From assembly GCF_018069865.1 (NCBI RefSeq), contig NZ_JAGQDG010000004.1, positions 434,001 through 498,000 of the forward strand: DNA of 64,000 nucleotides, given 5' to 3'. Positions 17,450 to 25,880 of the stretch are shown here, piece by piece (positions within the stretch are counted from its first letter, which is position 1; each line of letters begins with the position of its first letter). A program made the position numbers and the translations under genes. This stretch comes from Ideonella paludis (GTDB lineage: Bacteria > Pseudomonadota > Gammaproteobacteria > Burkholderiales > Burkholderiaceae_C). The notes under the pieces are model-generated. The model made no database searches, was not told the DNA's origin, and saw nothing but the letters and a program-made list of their open reading frames with translations.

Positions 17450-17793
17450 GGGCAGCTTTCGGGATGCGAGGACAAGCCTTGGCGAGCAAGCGCAGGGGCG
17501 CTTTGCTTGCGCCGCAGTGTGCCAGCTTGCAGGCCCGCCCAAGGCCCGGACACCCCCCCACGAATCGCAGTGACACCGACGACCATTGCGCCCTCCCAAG
17601 GCGGGCGACAACACATCGGCAGCAGCGCGAGGTCGACGTGTCTTGGCATTCCTTCATGCGATGAGCGGGTCTCGGTTTGGGCTGCACCTCAATCCATGCA
17701 AAATCGGCGCCCAACAGCACGGTGGCTTTCCATCAGCCACTCCACAGCATTCCAACCCGGCCCCCAAGCCGGGATCGTCCGAGGGAGCCCCCT
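17450..17793. promoter_or_regulatory. Divergent intergenic region upstream of the retron operon
   Basis: 344 bp between the M48 protease start and the start of the helical-repeat protein. It must hold promoters for both directions. I see no convincing consensus promoter; TTGGGC (about 17676) followed at 17 bp by AAAATC is a weak candidate toward the retron genes. GGGAG at 17783-17787 is a good ribosome-binding site for the TTG at 17794. An open frame crosses the region in phase with the downstream gene but is low-complexity and not protein-like. Confidence 0.35.
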
Positions 17794-20700
17794 TTGAGAA
17801 AAATCGGCAGCGCCATCCTGGTGCGACAACGGACGCGTGAGCCTGCCCGAACGGTCGAGGTGATCGCCTTGGACGAGGCGGGGTCTGAGGCCAATGCCGC
17901 AGCGGAGCAGTGTTTGGTGCATGTGCGCAGCGGGCCGCAAGAGTCCACGCTGACCGTGCTGCCCTGCTCCCAGGCTGAAGCCCTGCGGCGGGCGCTGAAC
18001 TACATCCAGCGGCGTCTGGCGGCTGGCGAACAACTGCTATCGCATGACGGCCTGCCGGGGCTGGAGGCACTGCAAGCGGCTGTGCCTGCGCCGGCCGCAC
18101 CCGCGCCTTCGACCGCGCCACCGGCGCTGGCGCCCGCCATCGCCGCACTGGTGGCGCGCTTTCAGCCGGATGCTTGGAAGCTGCAGTCGCCGGAGCGCCG
18201 CTCGCGCAGTGCCTGGCGGGTGGGCGAGTGCAGCGACGCCACTGCCCCAGACAGCCCCACGCAGCAAGCCTTGCGTGGCCTGGCACCGCGCTTGGTCGCT
18301 CTGTTGGGCACCGGGAACGACCTGTTGGATGGGAGCTTGGCCGTGGCCCTCGGTCGCCTGGGCGACCCGGGCGCTGCCGAGGCCCTTCAGCACTTGTCTG
18401 TGCAGGCGCGCAGCCCGGCCACGCGCCGCATCGCACGGCAAGCATGGCTGATGTTGCTGAGCCCTGAGGCCCGTGCCGCTCAAGTGGCAGACACGCTGCC
18501 CGGCTGGGCCGCCCCGCTCGCGTCCGAGCGAGGCGGCCACGAGCTGGTGGCGGAGGTCCAGGCGGCGCTGCAACAGCATGGCCGCGATTGGGCCTCGCTG
18601 CTGCAAGACTGGTACGAGCGGGCCTGGGTGCAGGCTGCGCCGCGCGCTGTGCTGCTGCGGCTGCTGCAAGCGCTACCGTTAGAGGGCGCGTGCTTCCAGG
18701 GTGTGCGCTATGTCTATAAGGCGGCAGAGCTGCGGCGCGACGCCGAAGTCCTCGGCCTGCTGCACGCGCGCTTTGAGAATGCAATGGCTGCGCCGCTGCC
18801 CGAGGCGCGTTCCGGCGCACCGCGCGCGTTCGGCCCCCGCACCCGGGATTACCTGCGCTTGCGTGGCTGGCGCAGCATTCGGCGCTTGGCCGCGCTTTCG
18901 CACCCGCATGCTGCAGACTTAGCGGTGGAGATGCTGCTGGGCCTGGTCGACGATGAGCAGCCGCCACCCCGCGAAGAACAACGTTGGGTGCTTGTGGAGC
19001 AGCGCTACCAACGCAGCGTCCGCCTGCATCATCGTGGCGCGGGGTGGATGCTGGTGCCCAAGCTCTTGCTGGCCCGTTGGCCGGCGCTGCAGACGAGTGC
19101 ACGCGCCAAGCGCTGGTGGACCTTGCAACCCTTGGACACCACGCAAGCCCTGCCAGAGCGCACCGAGGCCTTGCAAGACCTGTGGGACGCCCACCCCAAC
19201 GCCTTGCTGCGCCTGGCCATGGAGAGCCGCAGCGCCCTGGTGCAGGCCGTGGTGGCGCGCGCCCTGCAAGACCATGTTGACGTGCTGGAGGCACAAGCCC
19301 CGGCGGTGCTGAAACGGCTGTTGCAAAGCCCTTACGCGCCCACGGCCGCCCTCGGTTTTGCAACAGCCCGCGCCAAGGTGGAGGGCAGCACGGACATCGC
19401 CCAGCAGATCCCGTGGCTCAAGCTGCTTTCAGGCAGCGCCCATGCGCCGGCCCAAGACTTTGCATTGCTGCACCTGGCGGGCAACCCTGCGGCTTTTGCG
19501 CAGCACGCCGACCTCGTGCTCGCGCTGCTGTTCTCGGCGCAAGAGCGGGCGCGCCGCCAAGGGCACGGCCTGGCCTTGCTGGCCACGCCCGACGCGCTGC
19601 TGGCAGAGCTGCAAGACACCCTGCTGGCCCTGGACCCCGCAGACCCGGGCCTCGCCGAAGGTGCCGCACTGGCTGAACAACTGCTGCAAGGCCCGCTGAA
19701 GGCTGCCGCAGCGGCGTGGCCCGGCCTGGCCTCGGTCTTCACCTTGCTGGACCACCCGGCCGTGCCGGTGCTGAACCTGGCCGTGACGTGGGTGCTCTTG
19801 CATCCCAACGGCCTGGCCTTGATGCCGCCGCTGCTGCTGACCCGCCTGATGCGGGCCGAGAGCGCTGAACGCCGCGCCTGTGGGGCTCGGCTGCTGGCCG
19901 CCCTGCCCGATGCCCTGCTCAGCCAGCAGGTCGAGCTGCTGACGGCCCTGGCCTTGAGTGAACACGCGGCCATACGCGCCGCCATCGCGCCAGCGCTGCT
20001 GCGCCTGGCCCGCAAGGACGACACGCTGGGCCGGGCTCTGGCGGCGCGCCTGCATGACAGCCTGTTCCAGACGGAGCGTGGCGACGACTTGCATGAGGAC
20101 GTGCTGCGCTGGCTCACGGGCGAACTTGCGGCCTTCGCGCCCGCGCGCGAGGCCTCGGGCACCTGGCGCGCCTTGCAGGCCCGCAGCCGAGGCGCACAAC
20201 GCTATGGCGCCTGGGCCTTGGCCGCTCTGGCGCCGGCCGACTTCAGCCTGCGCCAGATGGCCACGCTGGCGCGGCATGCAGACGCCGAGGTGAGGCAATG
20301 GTCTCTTCGCGCCATCGACCACACGCTGGTGGCCCCCATCAGCCCACAGCAAGCGGCCGACCTGCTGCCACTGGCCGACACCGGCTTCGACGACAGCCGC
20401 CACTATGCCCAGCAGCTCTTCGGCGAGAGACTGCCCGATGATGCGCTGGAGGTGGACTTGCTGATCGCCTGGGTGGACCACCCTCAAGCCTGGGTGCAGG
20501 CCTTGGGCCGCAGCCAGTTGGTGCGCCGCATGAGCGCTGCAGACGCCAGCCTGTGCCTGACCCGCCTGAGCCAGCACCCAAGCACCGAGGTGCAGCTCTT
20601 CGTGACGCAATGGCTGCTGGACCTGCCGAGCAGCGATGCGCCAGCCCTCGCGCGACAGTTGCGCACGTTGACGCCGTACCTGCTCACGGTGCTGAGCCAA

Positions 20701-20931
20701 GTGCATCGCGGCCGGGTGGCCAAGGCGCGCATCACCCGCTTTCTGCGGGCGCACATTGAGGCCCCTGAAACCGCCGTGGTGGTGGCTGAAATTTTTGCGC
20801 GTCAGGTGGTCAGCGCCAGCCTCACCGACAAGCCGCAATACATCGCCGGCTTGCGTGACATCGCGGCTCGGCACCCGAGCATCGAGCTGCCCTTCTTGAG
20901 CTGGAAGACCCCGGCCCTGCACCGCCCCTGA
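17794..20931 (+). CDS. Retron-associated ARM/HEAT helical-repeat protein
   Basis: 1045 residues from TTG 17794 (RBS GGGAG six bases ahead). The first ~75 residues form a small alpha/beta domain (MRKIGSAILVRQ, then CLVHVRSGPQESTLTVLPCS). From about 140 to the end it is a long array of degenerate ~35-45 residue helical pairs, rich in Leu/Ala with ALARLGDPGAAEALQ-like ARM/HEAT signatures (for example LAVALGRLGDPGAAEALQHLS and HADAEVRQWSLRAI). No catalytic motif, membrane segment or signal. First gene of an operon with the SWIM protein (6-bp gap), a structured RNA and a retron reverse transcriptase. From memory, ARM + WHSWIM + RT is the gene set of retron type XIII. Probably the effector scaffold or target-sensing partner; role inferred. 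Confidence 0.8.
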   Translation: MRKIGSAILVRQRTREPARTVEVIALDEAGSEANAAAEQCLVHVRSGPQESTLTVLPCSQAEALRRALNYIQRRLAAGEQLLSHDGLPGLEALQAAVPAPAAPAPSTAPPALAPAIAALVARFQPDAWKLQSPERRSRSAWRVGECSDATAPDSPTQQALRGLAPRLVALLGTGNDLLDGSLAVALGRLGDPGAAEALQHLSVQARSPATRRIARQAWLMLLSPEARAAQVADTLPGWAAPLASERGGHELVAEVQAALQQHGRDWASLLQDWYERAWVQAAPRAVLLRLLQALPLEGACFQGVRYVYKAAELRRDAEVLGLLHARFENAMAAPLPEARSGAPRAFGPRTRDYLRLRGWRSIRRLAALSHPHAADLAVEMLLGLVDDEQPPPREEQRWVLVEQRYQRSVRLHHRGAGWMLVPKLLLARWPALQTSARAKRWWTLQPLDTTQALPERTEALQDLWDAHPNALLRLAMESRSALVQAVVARALQDHVDVLEAQAPAVLKRLLQSPYAPTAALGFATARAKVEGSTDIAQQIPWLKLLSGSAHAPAQDFALLHLAGNPAAFAQHADLVLALLFSAQERARRQGHGLALLATPDALLAELQDTLLALDPADPGLAEGAALAEQLLQGPLKAAAAAWPGLASVFTLLDHPAVPVLNLAVTWVLLHPNGLALMPPLLLTRLMRAESAERRACGARLLAALPDALLSQQVELLTALALSEHAAIRAAIAPALLRLARKDDTLGRALAARLHDSLFQTERGDDLHEDVLRWLTGELAAFAPAREASGTWRALQARSRGAQRYGAWALAALAPADFSLRQMATLARHADAEVRQWSLRAIDHTLVAPISPQQAADLLPLADTGFDDSRHYAQQLFGERLPDDALEVDLLIAWVDHPQAWVQALGRSQLVRRMSAADASLCLTRLSQHPSTEVQLFVTQWLLDLPSSDAPALARQLRTLTPYLLTVLSQVHRGRVAKARITRFLRAHIEAPETAVVVAEIFARQVVSASLTDKPQYIAGLRDIAARHPSIELPFLSWKTPALHRP

Positions 20932-20937
20932 ACCGCC

Positions 20938-22623
20938 ATGCAATTCCGCTACAAGTATTACGGCAGCACCACGGTGGACGACTCGTCCACCGCCCAGGCC
21001 TTCAGCTTTGCGCCCGACACGCTACGCCCCCCGACCTTTTTTGAGGGCATGCTGCGGCGCGATGCGTCTTGCAGCCTGGCCCTGCGAGAAGCGCTGTCAG
21101 CCCTGCACGCCGTGGTGGTCAGCGACCAACGCTATCGGGGACGCGACCCCCAGGCTTACCAGCAATGGCTGCAGGCCAATGAAAGCAGCTTGCTGGCGCA
21201 GTTCATGGCGCAGGCGGCGTCGCTGAAGGCCCGCGCCGAAACCCTCGGTGCCGAGCTGAAAAAAGTGCGTGAGGAGAAGTCAGCGCTGCTCGCCCCCTTT
21301 GATGCCGCGCGGCAAAAGTACTTCAACTGGCTGTATGAATCGAACCGCGATGCCTGGTTTGTGCTCGACCCGGTCATCACGGTGCATCCAGAGCGCCTCC
21401 TGTTCGAGGCCTTCAGCCAAGATGAGTCCAGCTATTGCGCCGTCAGCGTGAAGCACGATGTGTTTGACCGCGTGGGCGAGATGGCCTGCGGGACCACCAA
21501 TATCGACTACTCGGCCAGCTTGTTCGACGAGTTCCAAAAGATCCGCGACTACAAGGACACCCGTTTCCGAATCGACCCAACAGGGTTCAATGTCACCACC
21601 GGCACGGACCCGAGTTTTCAAGAATCCAAGATCGACCTGCCCGACAGTTGGGTGCGGGGCTTTTTGCAGGTCTCCAGCGCCATGACCTTGCCGGCCACGG
21701 TGCTGGAGCTGCACCCCATGGATTTGCACAATGTGTGCAGCCTGCTGCGCCAACGCAAAGAGCGCGCCGGGCCGCGCTCGCTGCGCTTTGAGCTGCAACC
21801 GGGCCAGCCCGCCAAGATGGTGCTGGAGCCTTGGCAGATTGAGCTGGTGGCGCGGCGCAGCGCGGTGGTGGGCGCCCCGCTGACCGAGGCCCGCAGCATT
21901 CGGCTCTGGGGCCGCCGCCGCTTGCTGACGCTGGAGCGCTTGATCGCCTTGGCCACTCGCGTGCGTGTGCACCTGCTGGGCAGCGGCCTGCCCAGCTTCT
22001 GGGTGGTGGAGATGGGGGACATCACGGTCACGCTGGGCCTGTCGGGCTGGACCGCCAACGATTGGTCTCAGGCAGGCCGCTTCGATTTGCTGCAGACCCG
22101 GCACGAGGTCAGCGACTTGGCCAAACAGCGGGTGGCGCAAGCGCTGCAGTCAGCGTGGCTGGCCACCCCCGCCGAGCTGGCGGAGCGCACCGGCCTGGCG
22201 CAGGCCGACGTGCAGGCCGCGTTGACGCTTTGGGTGCAGGCAGGCCGGGCCGTCTTTGACCTGCCTAGCGGGCGCTTTGCCTGGCGCGAGCTGTCGCGCG
22301 AGCCGCTGCCTTTGGACAGCTTGCGCTTTGCCAGCCCCGAAGAAGAACAGGCCCTCGCCCACGTTCACGCCCGCCGCGCGCGCTTGACCGAGGTCACCGA
22401 GCACGGCGAGCGCATTCGCCTGCGTGGCAGCGTCAAAGACGGCCGCCACAGCCATGAACCCACGCTCCTGCTGAACACGGATAGACAGATTCAAGAGGGC
22501 ACTTGCCAGTGCAACTTCTTCACCCAGAACCGGCTGCGGCGTGGCCCCTGCAGCCACATGCTCAGCGTGTTGTTGCTGGCACAAGCCAAGCTCACGGCCG
22601 CACCGGCCAAGGAGGTCGCATGA
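20938..22623 (+). CDS. Retron-associated winged-helix/SWIM zinc-finger protein (WHSWIM)
   Basis: 561 residues. The C-terminal SWIM zinc finger has CxC-n-CxH: Cys523, Cys525, Cys538 and His540 (TCQCNFF, GPCSHML). A winged-helix-like segment lies at about 391-454 (RVAQALQSAWLATPAELAERTGL, DVQAALTLWVQAG). The N-terminal ~380 residues are not recognised; residues about 80-110 are a coiled coil (LKARAETLGAELKKVREEKSALL). SWIM fingers bind DNA or protein, so this is the probable nucleic-acid-contacting partner of the msDNA or the helical-repeat protein. It begins 6 bp after the ARM gene with no obvious RBS, which suggests coupling. The retron RNA starts 25 bp after its stop. Confidence 0.8.
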   Translation: MQFRYKYYGSTTVDDSSTAQAFSFAPDTLRPPTFFEGMLRRDASCSLALREALSALHAVVVSDQRYRGRDPQAYQQWLQANESSLLAQFMAQAASLKARAETLGAELKKVREEKSALLAPFDAARQKYFNWLYESNRDAWFVLDPVITVHPERLLFEAFSQDESSYCAVSVKHDVFDRVGEMACGTTNIDYSASLFDEFQKIRDYKDTRFRIDPTGFNVTTGTDPSFQESKIDLPDSWVRGFLQVSSAMTLPATVLELHPMDLHNVCSLLRQRKERAGPRSLRFELQPGQPAKMVLEPWQIELVARRSAVVGAPLTEARSIRLWGRRRLLTLERLIALATRVRVHLLGSGLPSFWVVEMGDITVTLGLSGWTANDWSQAGRFDLLQTRHEVSDLAKQRVAQALQSAWLATPAELAERTGLAQADVQAALTLWVQAGRAVFDLPSGRFAWRELSREPLPLDSLRFASPEEEQALAHVHARRARLTEVTEHGERIRLRGSVKDGRHSHEPTLLLNTDRQIQEGTCQCNFFTQNRLRRGPCSHMLSVLLLAQAKLTAAPAKEVA

Positions 22624-22636
22624 GCGGTGGCTCGCA

Positions 22637-22642
22637 TATACT
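22637..22642 (+). promoter_or_regulatory. Candidate -10 box for the retron RNA
   Basis: TATACT matches the sigma-70 -10 consensus at five of six positions. A start seven bases downstream would fall at 22649, exactly the first base of the a1 repeat. No good -35 is visible at 16-18 bp upstream, so this may be weak, and the RNA may also come from the operon transcript. Confidence 0.35.
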
Positions 22643-22648
22643 GAAACC

Positions 22649-22877
22649 GAGTGCAGTGCGCTGGCTCTTGCAACCCGGGCGGTGTTTCGCCGCCCTTGTT
22701 CACCGCCGTTCTATGCGCCACGGGTGCCGTCTTCACTGTGCCGGGCTGCCACCCATCGCGCAATGCCAATCGGGCTCGCTTCGAGCACATTGGCGCGATG
22801 GGTGGCGCCCGGCGTCGAGTGGACAGCCCCCGTCCCTCAAGCCTTTCAGGCTCTTCGACGAGAAGCGCACTGCACTC
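22649..22877 (+). ncRNA. Retron msr-msd RNA
   Basis: Bounded by a perfect 14-bp inverted repeat: a1 GAGTGCAGTGCGCT (22649-22662) and a2 AGCGCACTGCACTC (22864-22877), the diagnostic a1/a2 pair that primes msDNA synthesis. The msr part has an 8-bp hairpin with a UUU loop (22677-22695) and a possible short ACGG/CCGT hairpin (22720-22730). The msd part has a long hairpin (22740-22813: a 7-bp GC base, then a 12-bp stem around CCACCCATCGCG, then an inner GCTCG/CGAGC stem). A second stem CGTCGA/TCGACG (22813-22818 with 22855-22860) encloses two small hairpins, GGAC/GTCC and AGCCT/AGGCT. The branching G is probably 22663 or 22664, just after a1. It lies directly upstream of the RT gene, as in known retrons. 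Boundaries of msr and msd are inferred. Confidence 0.85.
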
Positions 22878-22924
22878 ACCTTTTCCCACGCGCCAAGGCG
22901 CCCTGCCAATGCCAGATCAAGGCT

Positions 22925-22947
22925 CAGCACAGCCTGCGGAGGTGCTG
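22925..22947 (+). promoter_or_regulatory. Hairpin presenting the RT ribosome-binding site
   Basis: CAGCAC (22925-22930) pairs perfectly with GTGCTG (22942-22947). The loop carries most of GGAGG (22938-22942), and ATG follows at 22949. The Shine-Dalgarno sequence is strong and correctly spaced (six bases), so this hairpin may tune rather than block RT translation. Confidence 0.4.
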
Positions 22948-22948
22948 C

Positions 22949-24850
22949 ATGACGGAGCGCACCCCCACCCGTGCGGAGTTGCTGGCCCGCATCGCCCTCA
23001 GCAGCAAAGACGCCGTCGTCTTGGCCGAGATGCAACGCCTGGGTTTTTGGCCCAAGGATGCCGCGCAACCCACACTGGAATCAGCCCTGATCCAGCGCGA
23101 GGCAGAGCTGCAGCAAGCGCTCAACGAGCTACAGGATGAATTGAGGGTCAAGGGCGACCCCCAAGCGGCCTTGCAAGCCATGCGGCAAGCGCGCATGGCG
23201 CGCGCACGCGAGCAGCGCGAAGCCCACGCCCAAGTCCGCGAGAAAGCGCGTTACGAGCGCGCCCTGCGCTGGCACCAGGCCCGCGACACCGAGGTGGGCT
23301 TTCTGGGCCTGGGAGTCTCGGGCGGGCTGCAGGCGGACGCCGACCCGGCCGGCACCACAGCACGCTTGGTGCGCAGCGGTTTGCCGGCCTTGAGCACACC
23401 GCTGGAACTGGCCCAAGCCATGGGCCTGGGTTTGCCGGAGCTGAAGTTTCTGTGCTTTCACCGCGAGGTGGCCCGCACCACGCATTACCGCCGCTTCGAT
23501 CTGCCCAAGAAGACCGGCGGCGTTCGGACCATCTCGGCGCCCATGCCACGGCTCAAGCGCGCGCAGTACTGGGTGTTGGATCAGATCCTGGTCAAAGTGC
23601 CGTGCCACGATGCCGCACACGGCTTCATGCCGGGCCGCAGCATCGTCAGCAATGCGGCGCCGCATTGTGCGCAAGCAGTGGTCATCAACCTCGACCTGAA
23701 GGACTTCTTCCCCAGCATTCACTTCCCGCGCATCAAGGGCGTCTTTCAAGGCTTGGGCTATGGCGAGGCCGTGGCCAGCCTGCTGGCCCTGCTGTGCAGC
23801 GAGAACGTCTGCGACGAGTTGGAGGTGGATGGCGAGCGCTTTTTTGTGGGCGGCAAGGGCCGTGAGCGCGTGCTGCCACAGGGCGCGCCCACCAGCCCCA
23901 TGTTGACCAATATCTTGTGCCGCAAGCTGGACCGGCGGCTCCAGGGCTTGGCCGACAAATTGGGCTTCACCTACACCCGCTATGCCGACGACCTGACCTT
24001 CTCGGCGTCTGAGGAGGGCGCCACGCGGGTCGGCAGCCTGCTGCGTCAGGTGCACCATGTGCTGCGCAGCGAGGGCTTCACGCCGCACCCCGACAAGCAG
24101 CGCGTGATGCGCCAAGGGGCTCGGCAAGAAGTCACGGGGGTGGTGGTCAATGCCAAGCCCTCGGTGTCGCGCACCGAACGCCGCAAGCTGCGCGCGGCCT
24201 TGCACCGCGCGAAGACGCAAGGGCTGGCGGCCGCCACCTGGCAGGGGCAAGCCGCCAGCCGGGACGTGCTGGTGGGCTATGCCCGCTTTGTGCGCATGGT
24301 CAGCGCCCCCCAAGGCCAAGCCCTGCTGCAACAAGCCCTGGCTTTGCCTGGCACGGCGCCCTCAGCGGCGGCTGCCCGTGCTGACGCCTTCCGCGTGATG
24401 GCCGCCAAGGGCCAGGCACCGCAGCGCCGGCAAGGGGCGTGGTGGCAGCCCACGCCGCCGCCGCTGCCGCAGCTCGCCTTGACGGCACAGCAGGTCAAGA
24501 CGGCTCGCCAAGAGCGGCTGAATGCCGAGCGCGCAGCGCGCCAAGCGGCCAAACGGCCGGCAGCACCCGCACAAGGCCGCGACGCGAACACCCAGGCGCC
24601 AGGGATGTCTCACACCCAAGGCCACACCCCAGACGCCCCCACCACCAGCGCCCCACCCGTGTCGTGGTGGCGTTTCTTCCTGCAGTTGTTCATCCTGATC
24701 CGCGTCGCCGTGGGCCTCAAGAGTGCGCTGTTCTTGATGTTGGGGGCGCTGTGCTTGGGCCATGCGTTGATGACGCGTCGCCAGGGCTGGATCCGGTTCG
24801 CCCTGACCTTGGTGATCCTGGCCGTGTTGAGCAGCTTTACCAAGCTCTAA
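22949..24850 (+). CDS. Retron reverse transcriptase with C-terminal membrane tail
   Basis: 633 residues. The RT core (about 165-450) has KKTGGVRTISAP, motif A NLDLKDFFPS with Asp249/Asp252, LPQGAPTSPMLTN, and catalytic YADD at 345-348. Two retron-specific markers are present: NAxxH (NAAPH, 235-239) and VTG (395-397). A ~120-residue N-terminal extension is a charged coiled coil ending in GFLGLGVSGGL, which I recall from myxobacterial retron RTs. After the thumb, a Pro/Ala-rich linker (about 485-570) leads to two predicted membrane segments (about 573-605 and 613-631), unusual for retron RTs. It makes msDNA from the RNA encoded just upstream. ATG 22949 was chosen because GGAGG lies six bases before it and the longer frame runs through the RNA. 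Confidence 0.93.
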   Translation: MTERTPTRAELLARIALSSKDAVVLAEMQRLGFWPKDAAQPTLESALIQREAELQQALNELQDELRVKGDPQAALQAMRQARMARAREQREAHAQVREKARYERALRWHQARDTEVGFLGLGVSGGLQADADPAGTTARLVRSGLPALSTPLELAQAMGLGLPELKFLCFHREVARTTHYRRFDLPKKTGGVRTISAPMPRLKRAQYWVLDQILVKVPCHDAAHGFMPGRSIVSNAAPHCAQAVVINLDLKDFFPSIHFPRIKGVFQGLGYGEAVASLLALLCSENVCDELEVDGERFFVGGKGRERVLPQGAPTSPMLTNILCRKLDRRLQGLADKLGFTYTRYADDLTFSASEEGATRVGSLLRQVHHVLRSEGFTPHPDKQRVMRQGARQEVTGVVVNAKPSVSRTERRKLRAALHRAKTQGLAAATWQGQAASRDVLVGYARFVRMVSAPQGQALLQQALALPGTAPSAAAARADAFRVMAAKGQAPQRRQGAWWQPTPPPLPQLALTAQQVKTARQERLNAERAARQAAKRPAAPAQGRDANTQAPGMSHTQGHTPDAPTTSAPPVSWWRFFLQLFILIRVAVGLKSALFLMLGALCLGHALMTRRQGWIRFALTLVILAVLSSFTKL

Positions 24851-24908
24851 CGAACACGATCAGCAGGGCCGCACAGGGCTGTAGGCGGGTGCCGTCAGCA
24901 GCGGTGGC

Positions 24909-25880
24909 TCATTTGCGCTTGGCGCGCGGATGGGCCGCGTCGTAAACCTTGGCCAGGTGCTGAAAGTCCAGCCGGGTGTAGACCTGGGTGGTGCTGATGT
25001 TGGCGTGGCCCAGCAGCTCTTGCACGGCGCGCAAATCGCCACTGGATTGCAGCACATGCGAGGCAAAGCTGTGGCGGAGCATGTGCGGGTGCACCGAGGT
25101 GGGCAGGCCGGCATCCAAGGCCAGCGCTTTGAGGCGCAGGCGGATGGCCGCGTCGCTGAGGCGCTGGCCGCGGCGCCCCACAAACAAGGCGGGCTCTTGG
25201 GCACCCGCCAGCGTGTCGCGCACGGCGAGCCAGGCTTGCAGGGCCTTCAAGGCGGGGCCGCCCACCGGCACGCTGCGGCGTTTGCTGCCCTTGCCCAGCA
25301 CATGGGCGGTGGCGTCGGGCACATCGACCCAGCCTTTGGCGCCGGGGCTGGCGTGGGCATCCAATCCGACCAGCTCGCTGATGCGCAGGCCGCTGCTGTA
25401 GAGCAGCTCGACGATGGCATGGTCGCGCAGCGCCAGGCGCTCATCGCCATCTTCGCGTTCATGGCTGGCCAAGGCCACGGCCTGATCGACTGACAAGGCC
25501 TTGGGTAAAGGCTTGGCCGCTTTGGGGCCGCGCACGCCCTCGACGGGGTTGAGGCTGACGCCGCCCTCTTGGCCCCACCAGCGGTAGAAGCTGCGCCAGG
25601 CCGACAGCTCCAGCGCCAAGCTGCGCGGGCCCAGACCCTGGCCATGCAGCAGGGCGCTGAAACGCCGGACATGCGCCGGCTTGAGATTGGCGATCTCCAG
25701 CCCGTGCTGCTGCGTCAAGCCCAAGAGGCGTTGCAGTGCAGTTTGGTAGAGCACCAGCGTGCGCGGCGCCAAGCGGCGGCTGACTTGCACGTGCTCCAGG
25801 TAGCGGGCCATGGGCGCTGGCCAGGGCAGCAGCGGTGCACCGGCCGGGGCCGAGATCAGCGCGTCAGGCGGGGCTGTCAC
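24909..25880 (-). CDS. xerC: Tyrosine recombinase XerC
   Basis: 323 residues from GTG 25880. An N-terminal SAM-like core-binding domain (20-115) and a catalytic domain with Arg166 (SGLRISELVG), Lys197 (LGKGSKRR), His266/Arg269 (HPHMLRHSFA), His292 (LGHANISTTQ) and nucleophile Tyr301. Works with XerD at dif to resolve chromosome dimers. It follows DUF484 and dapF in the conserved dapF-DUF484-xerC order, which marks it as housekeeping XerC rather than an integrase. The frame is open upstream into DUF484, but homologues start near this GTG. Convergent with the retron RT gene. Confidence 0.93.
   Translation of the reverse strand: MTAPPDALISAPAGAPLLPWPAPMARYLEHVQVSRRLAPRTLVLYQTALQRLLGLTQQHGLEIANLKPAHVRRFSALLHGQGLGPRSLALELSAWRSFYRWWGQEGGVSLNPVEGVRGPKAAKPLPKALSVDQAVALASHEREDGDERLALRDHAIVELLYSSGLRISELVGLDAHASPGAKGWVDVPDATAHVLGKGSKRRSVPVGGPALKALQAWLAVRDTLAGAQEPALFVGRRGQRLSDAAIRLRLKALALDAGLPTSVHPHMLRHSFASHVLQSSGDLRAVQELLGHANISTTQVYTRLDFQHLAKVYDAAHPRAKRK

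Follow-up and report, generated by a model that had tools for sequence, protein, structure and literature searches.

Positions 22649-22877 of the 64,000-nucleotide stretch of Ideonella paludis DNA analysed here (the window) almost certainly encode the msr-msd RNA of a type XIII retron, as judged by comparing sequences. The a1/a2, msr and msd helices of this RNA covary, and a complete type XIII gene set adjoins it, in agreement with the sequence-only reading of the region as a retron msr-msd RNA. We found the marks of a retron together at this locus (the motifs of a retron reverse transcriptase (RT), an adjacent ncRNA closed by a1/a2 and a conserved G at the inner end of a1), as well as those of type XIII (an RT of the matching clade, SWIM and WGR/HEAT partners and a type-specific RNA). 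The retron type is a known one. What is corrected here is the structure of its RNA; the analysis brings no new mechanism, and its novelty is modest.

The genes of the retron follow one another in the order WGR/HEAT gene, SWIM gene, ncRNA and RT gene, placing the RNA between the SWIM and RT genes (Table 1). The WGR/HEAT and SWIM proteins match the PADLOC profiles WGR_XIII (E 1.8e-242) and SWIM_XIII (E 2e-214) over nearly the full profile length, and the RT matches RT_XIII with an E-value of 8.4e-173 and 573.7 bits, as against 340.6 for the next profile. The names WGR and SWIM rest on these type XIII profiles, because a Pfam search of the WGR/HEAT protein gave no WGR domain match and Pfam SWIM scored 17.1 bits on the SWIM protein, below its cut-off of 19.6. 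In the SWIM protein, the CxC...CxH motif reads CQC...CSH. The AlphaFold model of the WGR/HEAT protein (mean pLDDT 86) displays a small beta domain followed by an alpha solenoid, for which the best fold matches are HEAT-repeat proteins; these matches are generic, with TM below 0.3, and we assigned no function from them. The RT carries NAAPH at 235, YADD at 345 and VTG at 395, all conserved in complete homologues; the hallmarks of retron RTs are NAxxH in region X, the YADD core and, where region Y begins, VTG (PMC6868368). Sequence (E 5e-40) and fold agree in giving the RT of retron Ec86 (7v9x) as its best solved match.

Two congeners (G182 and G1091, loci L076 and L078) retain the empty site, with the M48 peptidase gene following xerC after about 100 bp. 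Only the retron, about 7.2 kb in length, separates the same two genes in the window (17614-24909). The three-gene retron and its RNA are therefore a clean insertion here. In other genera, the neighbours of the retron differ. At a related locus, L089 (1353-6307), we observed a WGR-SWIM pair of the type XIII family, and the next 6.7 kb or so downstream of it contain neither an RT nor an msr-msd RNA; this is either a remnant or a pair used independently.

Table 1. Positions, in window coordinates, of the retron genes and of the elements of the msr-msd RNA
Feature	Position	Strand	Basis or remark
WGR/HEAT-solenoid protein	17824-20931	+	WGR_XIII match; start codon uncertain, frame open from 17665
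SWIM zinc-finger protein	20938-22623	+	SWIM_XIII match; CxC...CxH motif
-10-like promoter element TATACT	22637-22642	+	just upstream of a1
msr-msd RNA, 229 nt	22649-22877		covarying fold
a1 arm	22649-22662	+	perfect complement of a2
Candidate branching G residues	22663-22664	+	start of GGCUCUUGCA; invariant in 29/29
CUC	22665-22667	+	possible pairing to GAG 22860-22862, inward of a1/a2
msr hairpin, 8 bp, UUU loop	22677-22695	+	covariation
Complete msd hairpin, 114 nt	22720-22833	+	includes basal stem 22720-22731 / 22822-22833
Distal msd stem	22740-22813	+	1-nt 5' bulge about 7 bp in; apical hairpin 22774-22786, bulge 22766-22773
Small hairpin AGCCU-UUC-AGGCU	22840-22852	+	5' part of predicted msDNA
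a2 arm	22864-22877	+	perfect complement of a1
Retron reverse transcriptase, 633 aa	22949-24850	+	RT_XIII match
C-terminal hydrophobic module of RT	24665-24847 (residues about 573-633)		hydropathy, AlphaFold model

Searches with the RT and the SWIM protein yielded 29 distinct SWIM-to-RT spacers, and the RNA is present in every one of them. The sources are mainly Burkholderiales, joined by other Betaproteobacteria (Uliginosibacterium, Parachitinimonas and their relatives) and by Methylobacterium or close kin. The 229 nt of the window RNA fold 8.0 standard deviations below 200 dinucleotide shuffles, none of which reached as low an energy. RNAalifold, applied to a MAFFT alignment of the 29 RNAs, gave 53 consensus pairs, 38 of them with compensatory change, and 95.3% of cells pair in this consensus, compared with 73.9% for shuffled partners and 35-52% for slid ones. 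Because related sequences inflate raw counts, we placed the compensatory changes on the branches of a tree built from the neighbouring proteins, where we counted 132 branch changes, as against 5-15 in slid controls. These fall in a1/a2 (19), the msr hairpin (8), the msd base (6), the msd stem (93) and the apex (6). We also counted on a hand-anchored alignment, since MAFFT sets a few 3' bases wrongly in the group of shorter RNAs. The sequence-only reading had named the lack of compensatory changes in the a1/a2 or msd stems as the finding that would speak against it; both sets of stems show them. Rfam returned no family at gathering scores for the RNA, and two weak microRNA hits proved to be chance matches to the long hairpin.

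The closing repeat is the sole perfect 14-mer inverted repeat with a loop of 100-300 nt in the 64 kb. Its two arms had been described as a perfect 14-bp repeat, which they are, and in the hand-anchored alignment (25 sequences) 12 of 13 pairs show compensatory change, with none of 500 shuffles reaching the same pairing; the innermost position is mostly unpaired in homologues, being A-A in 16 of 25. Immediately inside a1 stand the two G residues already proposed as branching candidates, correctly placed and identical in all 29 RNAs. Across homologues they lie in the context NGG[C/A], which takes the form CTGG here and CAGG in most homologues. This context is unlike those published for verified retrons, namely TAGC, CAGC, CAGA, GAGC and ACGC (PMC6868368). 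The A that precedes the first G in most homologues resembles the published NAG contexts and so would favour G22663. Next to these residues, a CUC may extend the stem by pairing with GAG, for which a single U-A to C-G change, one event in the Methylobacterium clade, is suggestive only. Outside the Methylobacterium group, all 25 loci have a -10-like TANACT upstream of a1, nearly always within about 10 nt.

Every cell of the 8-bp msr hairpin with its UUU loop is paired (100%), and three of its eight pairs show compensatory change, so that this stem, too, stands as it was first read. Helix 3 of the consensus, a short UGC/GCR pairing in the msr, showed no compensatory change and was dropped from the model. 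Within the msr hairpin, GGUGNNUCGCC (22681-22692) is almost unchanged in all 29 RNAs.

The msd is where our model departs from the first one. The 74-nt hairpin described there is real: it is recovered as the distal msd structure in individual folds of all 29 RNAs, and its main stem shows compensatory change in 19 of 20 pairs. It forms, however, the upper part of what is probably one longer hairpin, 22720-22833, closed by a basal stem in which 7 of 12 pairs show compensatory change (G-C to U-A, G-C to C-G and C-G to U-A) and which none of 500 shuffles matched in pairing (hand-anchored alignment). At the msd base, CACU/AGUG varies only by an A-C in 8 sequences, and this near-invariance provides little evidence either way. 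The sequence-only reading had instead drawn a stem, CGUCGA/UCGACG (22813-22818 / 22855-22860), around two small hairpins, which would leave the msDNA branched near its 5' end, in contrast to the best-known retrons, whose msd is a single long hairpin. We rebuilt this stem from its description, with GGAC/GUCC and AGCCU/AGGCU as the enclosed hairpins. The window does contain this pairing, which 94% of cells across the 29 sequences can form, yet that share comes almost wholly from invariant letters: 21 of 500 shuffles pair as well, and 2 compensatory cells compare with 1.4 by shuffle. Its sole freely varying pair (GC 17, GU 4, UU 4, UA 2, AA 2) is broken in 6 of 29 RNAs and another pair in 4, and the enclosed GGAC/GUCC hairpin has one pair broken in 11 of 29. 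The basal msd stem, which competes with both the enclosing stem and this hairpin and uses the same 3' bases, covaries by contrast and is the one chosen when the predicted msDNA is folded as DNA, giving one long hairpin and, in the 5' tail, a small one. The missing covariation of the enclosing stem, the covariation of the basal stem and the DNA fold together make a branch of this kind improbable.

With the single longer hairpin, the msDNA would probably carry a 5' tail of about 30 nt bearing one small hairpin. The long Burkholderiales RNAs, 20 in number, all have this small hairpin, one pair of which shows compensatory change; 9-10 nt of its region are deleted in lineages other than Burkholderiales. 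The distal hairpin segment measures 83-85 nt in all RNAs, its stem sequence being almost wholly different between clades; CTTGCA and TTCACTG lie 65 nt apart in 28 of 29 and 66 nt in the remaining one, and in nearly all RNAs the msd stem is interrupted 7-8 bp in by a one-base bulge or a single mismatch. UUCACUG (22732-22738) and UCGAG (22815-22819) are almost unchanged in the 29 RNAs, with the adjoining stems varying freely. The constancy of these two elements and of the msr-hairpin element beside variable stems suggests sequence-specific recognition, and together with the msd-stem bulge they are candidates for contact by a protein. At the apex, a GGCUYG-NNN-CRAGC hairpin after a 7-8 nt bulge (22766-22786) is retained in most lineages and resembles the invariant GGCUCUUCGAYGAG near the RNA 3' end.

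PADLOC already draws on a collection of covariance models for msr-msd RNAs (PMC9252829). With a covariance model of our own (R1), 6 of 201 family genomes scored above 230 bits, exactly those with a type XIII RT, and the next scored at most 21 bits; at the other RT loci fetched nothing exceeded 10 bits. Viral contigs contained neither a relative of the SWIM protein nor an exact RNA motif, and plasmids one full-length relative, in Methylobacterium. The result of the R1 scan bears on whether the RNA might be a structured element with another role, one that is not copied into DNA but serves the RT gene, for example, as a leader or an attenuator. Its position directly upstream of the RT gene, with a -10-like element, would suit such a role. 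An RNA that occurs only with a type XIII RT, and that joins closing repeat, inner G residues, msr hairpin and long msd in the full retron layout beside an RT with retron motifs, makes it very unlikely. We regard as equally unlikely that the retron has decayed and no longer makes msDNA: the locus L089 shows that the WGR and SWIM genes can be retained without RT or RNA, but in the window the a1/a2 repeat has no mismatch, none of the three genes is interrupted, and the catalytic and retron motifs have been kept. A type XIII msr-msd RNA is the reading we retain.

The RT extends about 125 residues past its profile match, through a Pro/Ala-rich linker into hydrophobic helices. The AlphaFold model places three helices at 573-632 (block pLDDT mostly 81-89) after an unordered linker. 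Hydropathy plots of the homologues (L005-L008, L028-L038 and L049) display one or two hydrophobic tail segments in all complete type XIII RTs examined, Methylobacterium included, indicating that the tail belongs to type XIII as sampled here. From hydropathy alone, it is predicted to insert in the membrane. We know of no description of a hydrophobic tail on a type XIII RT. It is possible, though somewhat short of probable, that type XIII is a membrane-tethered retron, in which this conserved membrane module of two to three helices anchors the RT-msDNA complex or kills, and the SWIM and HEAT/WGR proteins act as sensing or gating arms.

Retron biochemistry suggests how these parts may work together. 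The RNA would be transcribed from its own promoter and its msr bound by the RT, and the 2'-OH of G22663 (G22664 being less likely) would prime copying. Copying would start opposite about 22863, just inside a2, and run back to about 22720. The predicted product is an msDNA of roughly 145 nt, made up of the 5' tail of about 30 nt and the 114-nt hairpin. The RT-msDNA complex, possibly held at the inner membrane through the C-terminal helices of the RT, would keep both partner proteins, WGR/HEAT and SWIM, inactive. Disturbance of the msDNA by a phage product would then release a toxic activity, and the infected cell would stop, as in abortive infection. We infer from other retrons a role in phage defence, with the RT tail or the SWIM/WGR pair as candidate effectors. 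The literature we searched contained no retron paper naming type XIII, and the covariation-tested consensus describes the template RNA of a retron type for which we found no mechanistic study. The consensus makes type XIII directly testable, since it comes with a named priming G, msDNA ends, conserved elements and a covariance model, and the hydrophobic tail conserved in the RT points to a definite hypothesis on where such a retron acts.

The closest known system is type XIII as modelled in PADLOC (RT_XIII, SWIM_XIII and WGR_XIII), reportedly after Mestre et al. 2020. All three proteins are alike and the gene order is the same, with the RNA between SWIM and RT, whereas the match to the RT_XIII profile stops about 125 residues before the end of the RT described here. 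Type IV retrons (Ec48) have a two-transmembrane effector that is a separate protein; the hydrophobic tail here is fused to the RT and might play a like part. The RT of retron Ec86 (Eco1), at 320 aa, is without the N-terminal 140 residues and the C-terminal hydrophobic module of the RT here, and that retron has a different effector. Retron-Mxa1 (Mx162) of Myxococcus xanthus has an RT with an extended N-terminus, as here, a likeness drawn from its description rather than from sequence comparison (PMC6868368). Both precursors are long, 241 nt in Retron-Mxa1 and 229 nt here, with an msd of 162 nt as against about 145 nt predicted for the window, and the branching G lies in the context CAGC there (PMC6868368) and the candidate one in CTGG here.
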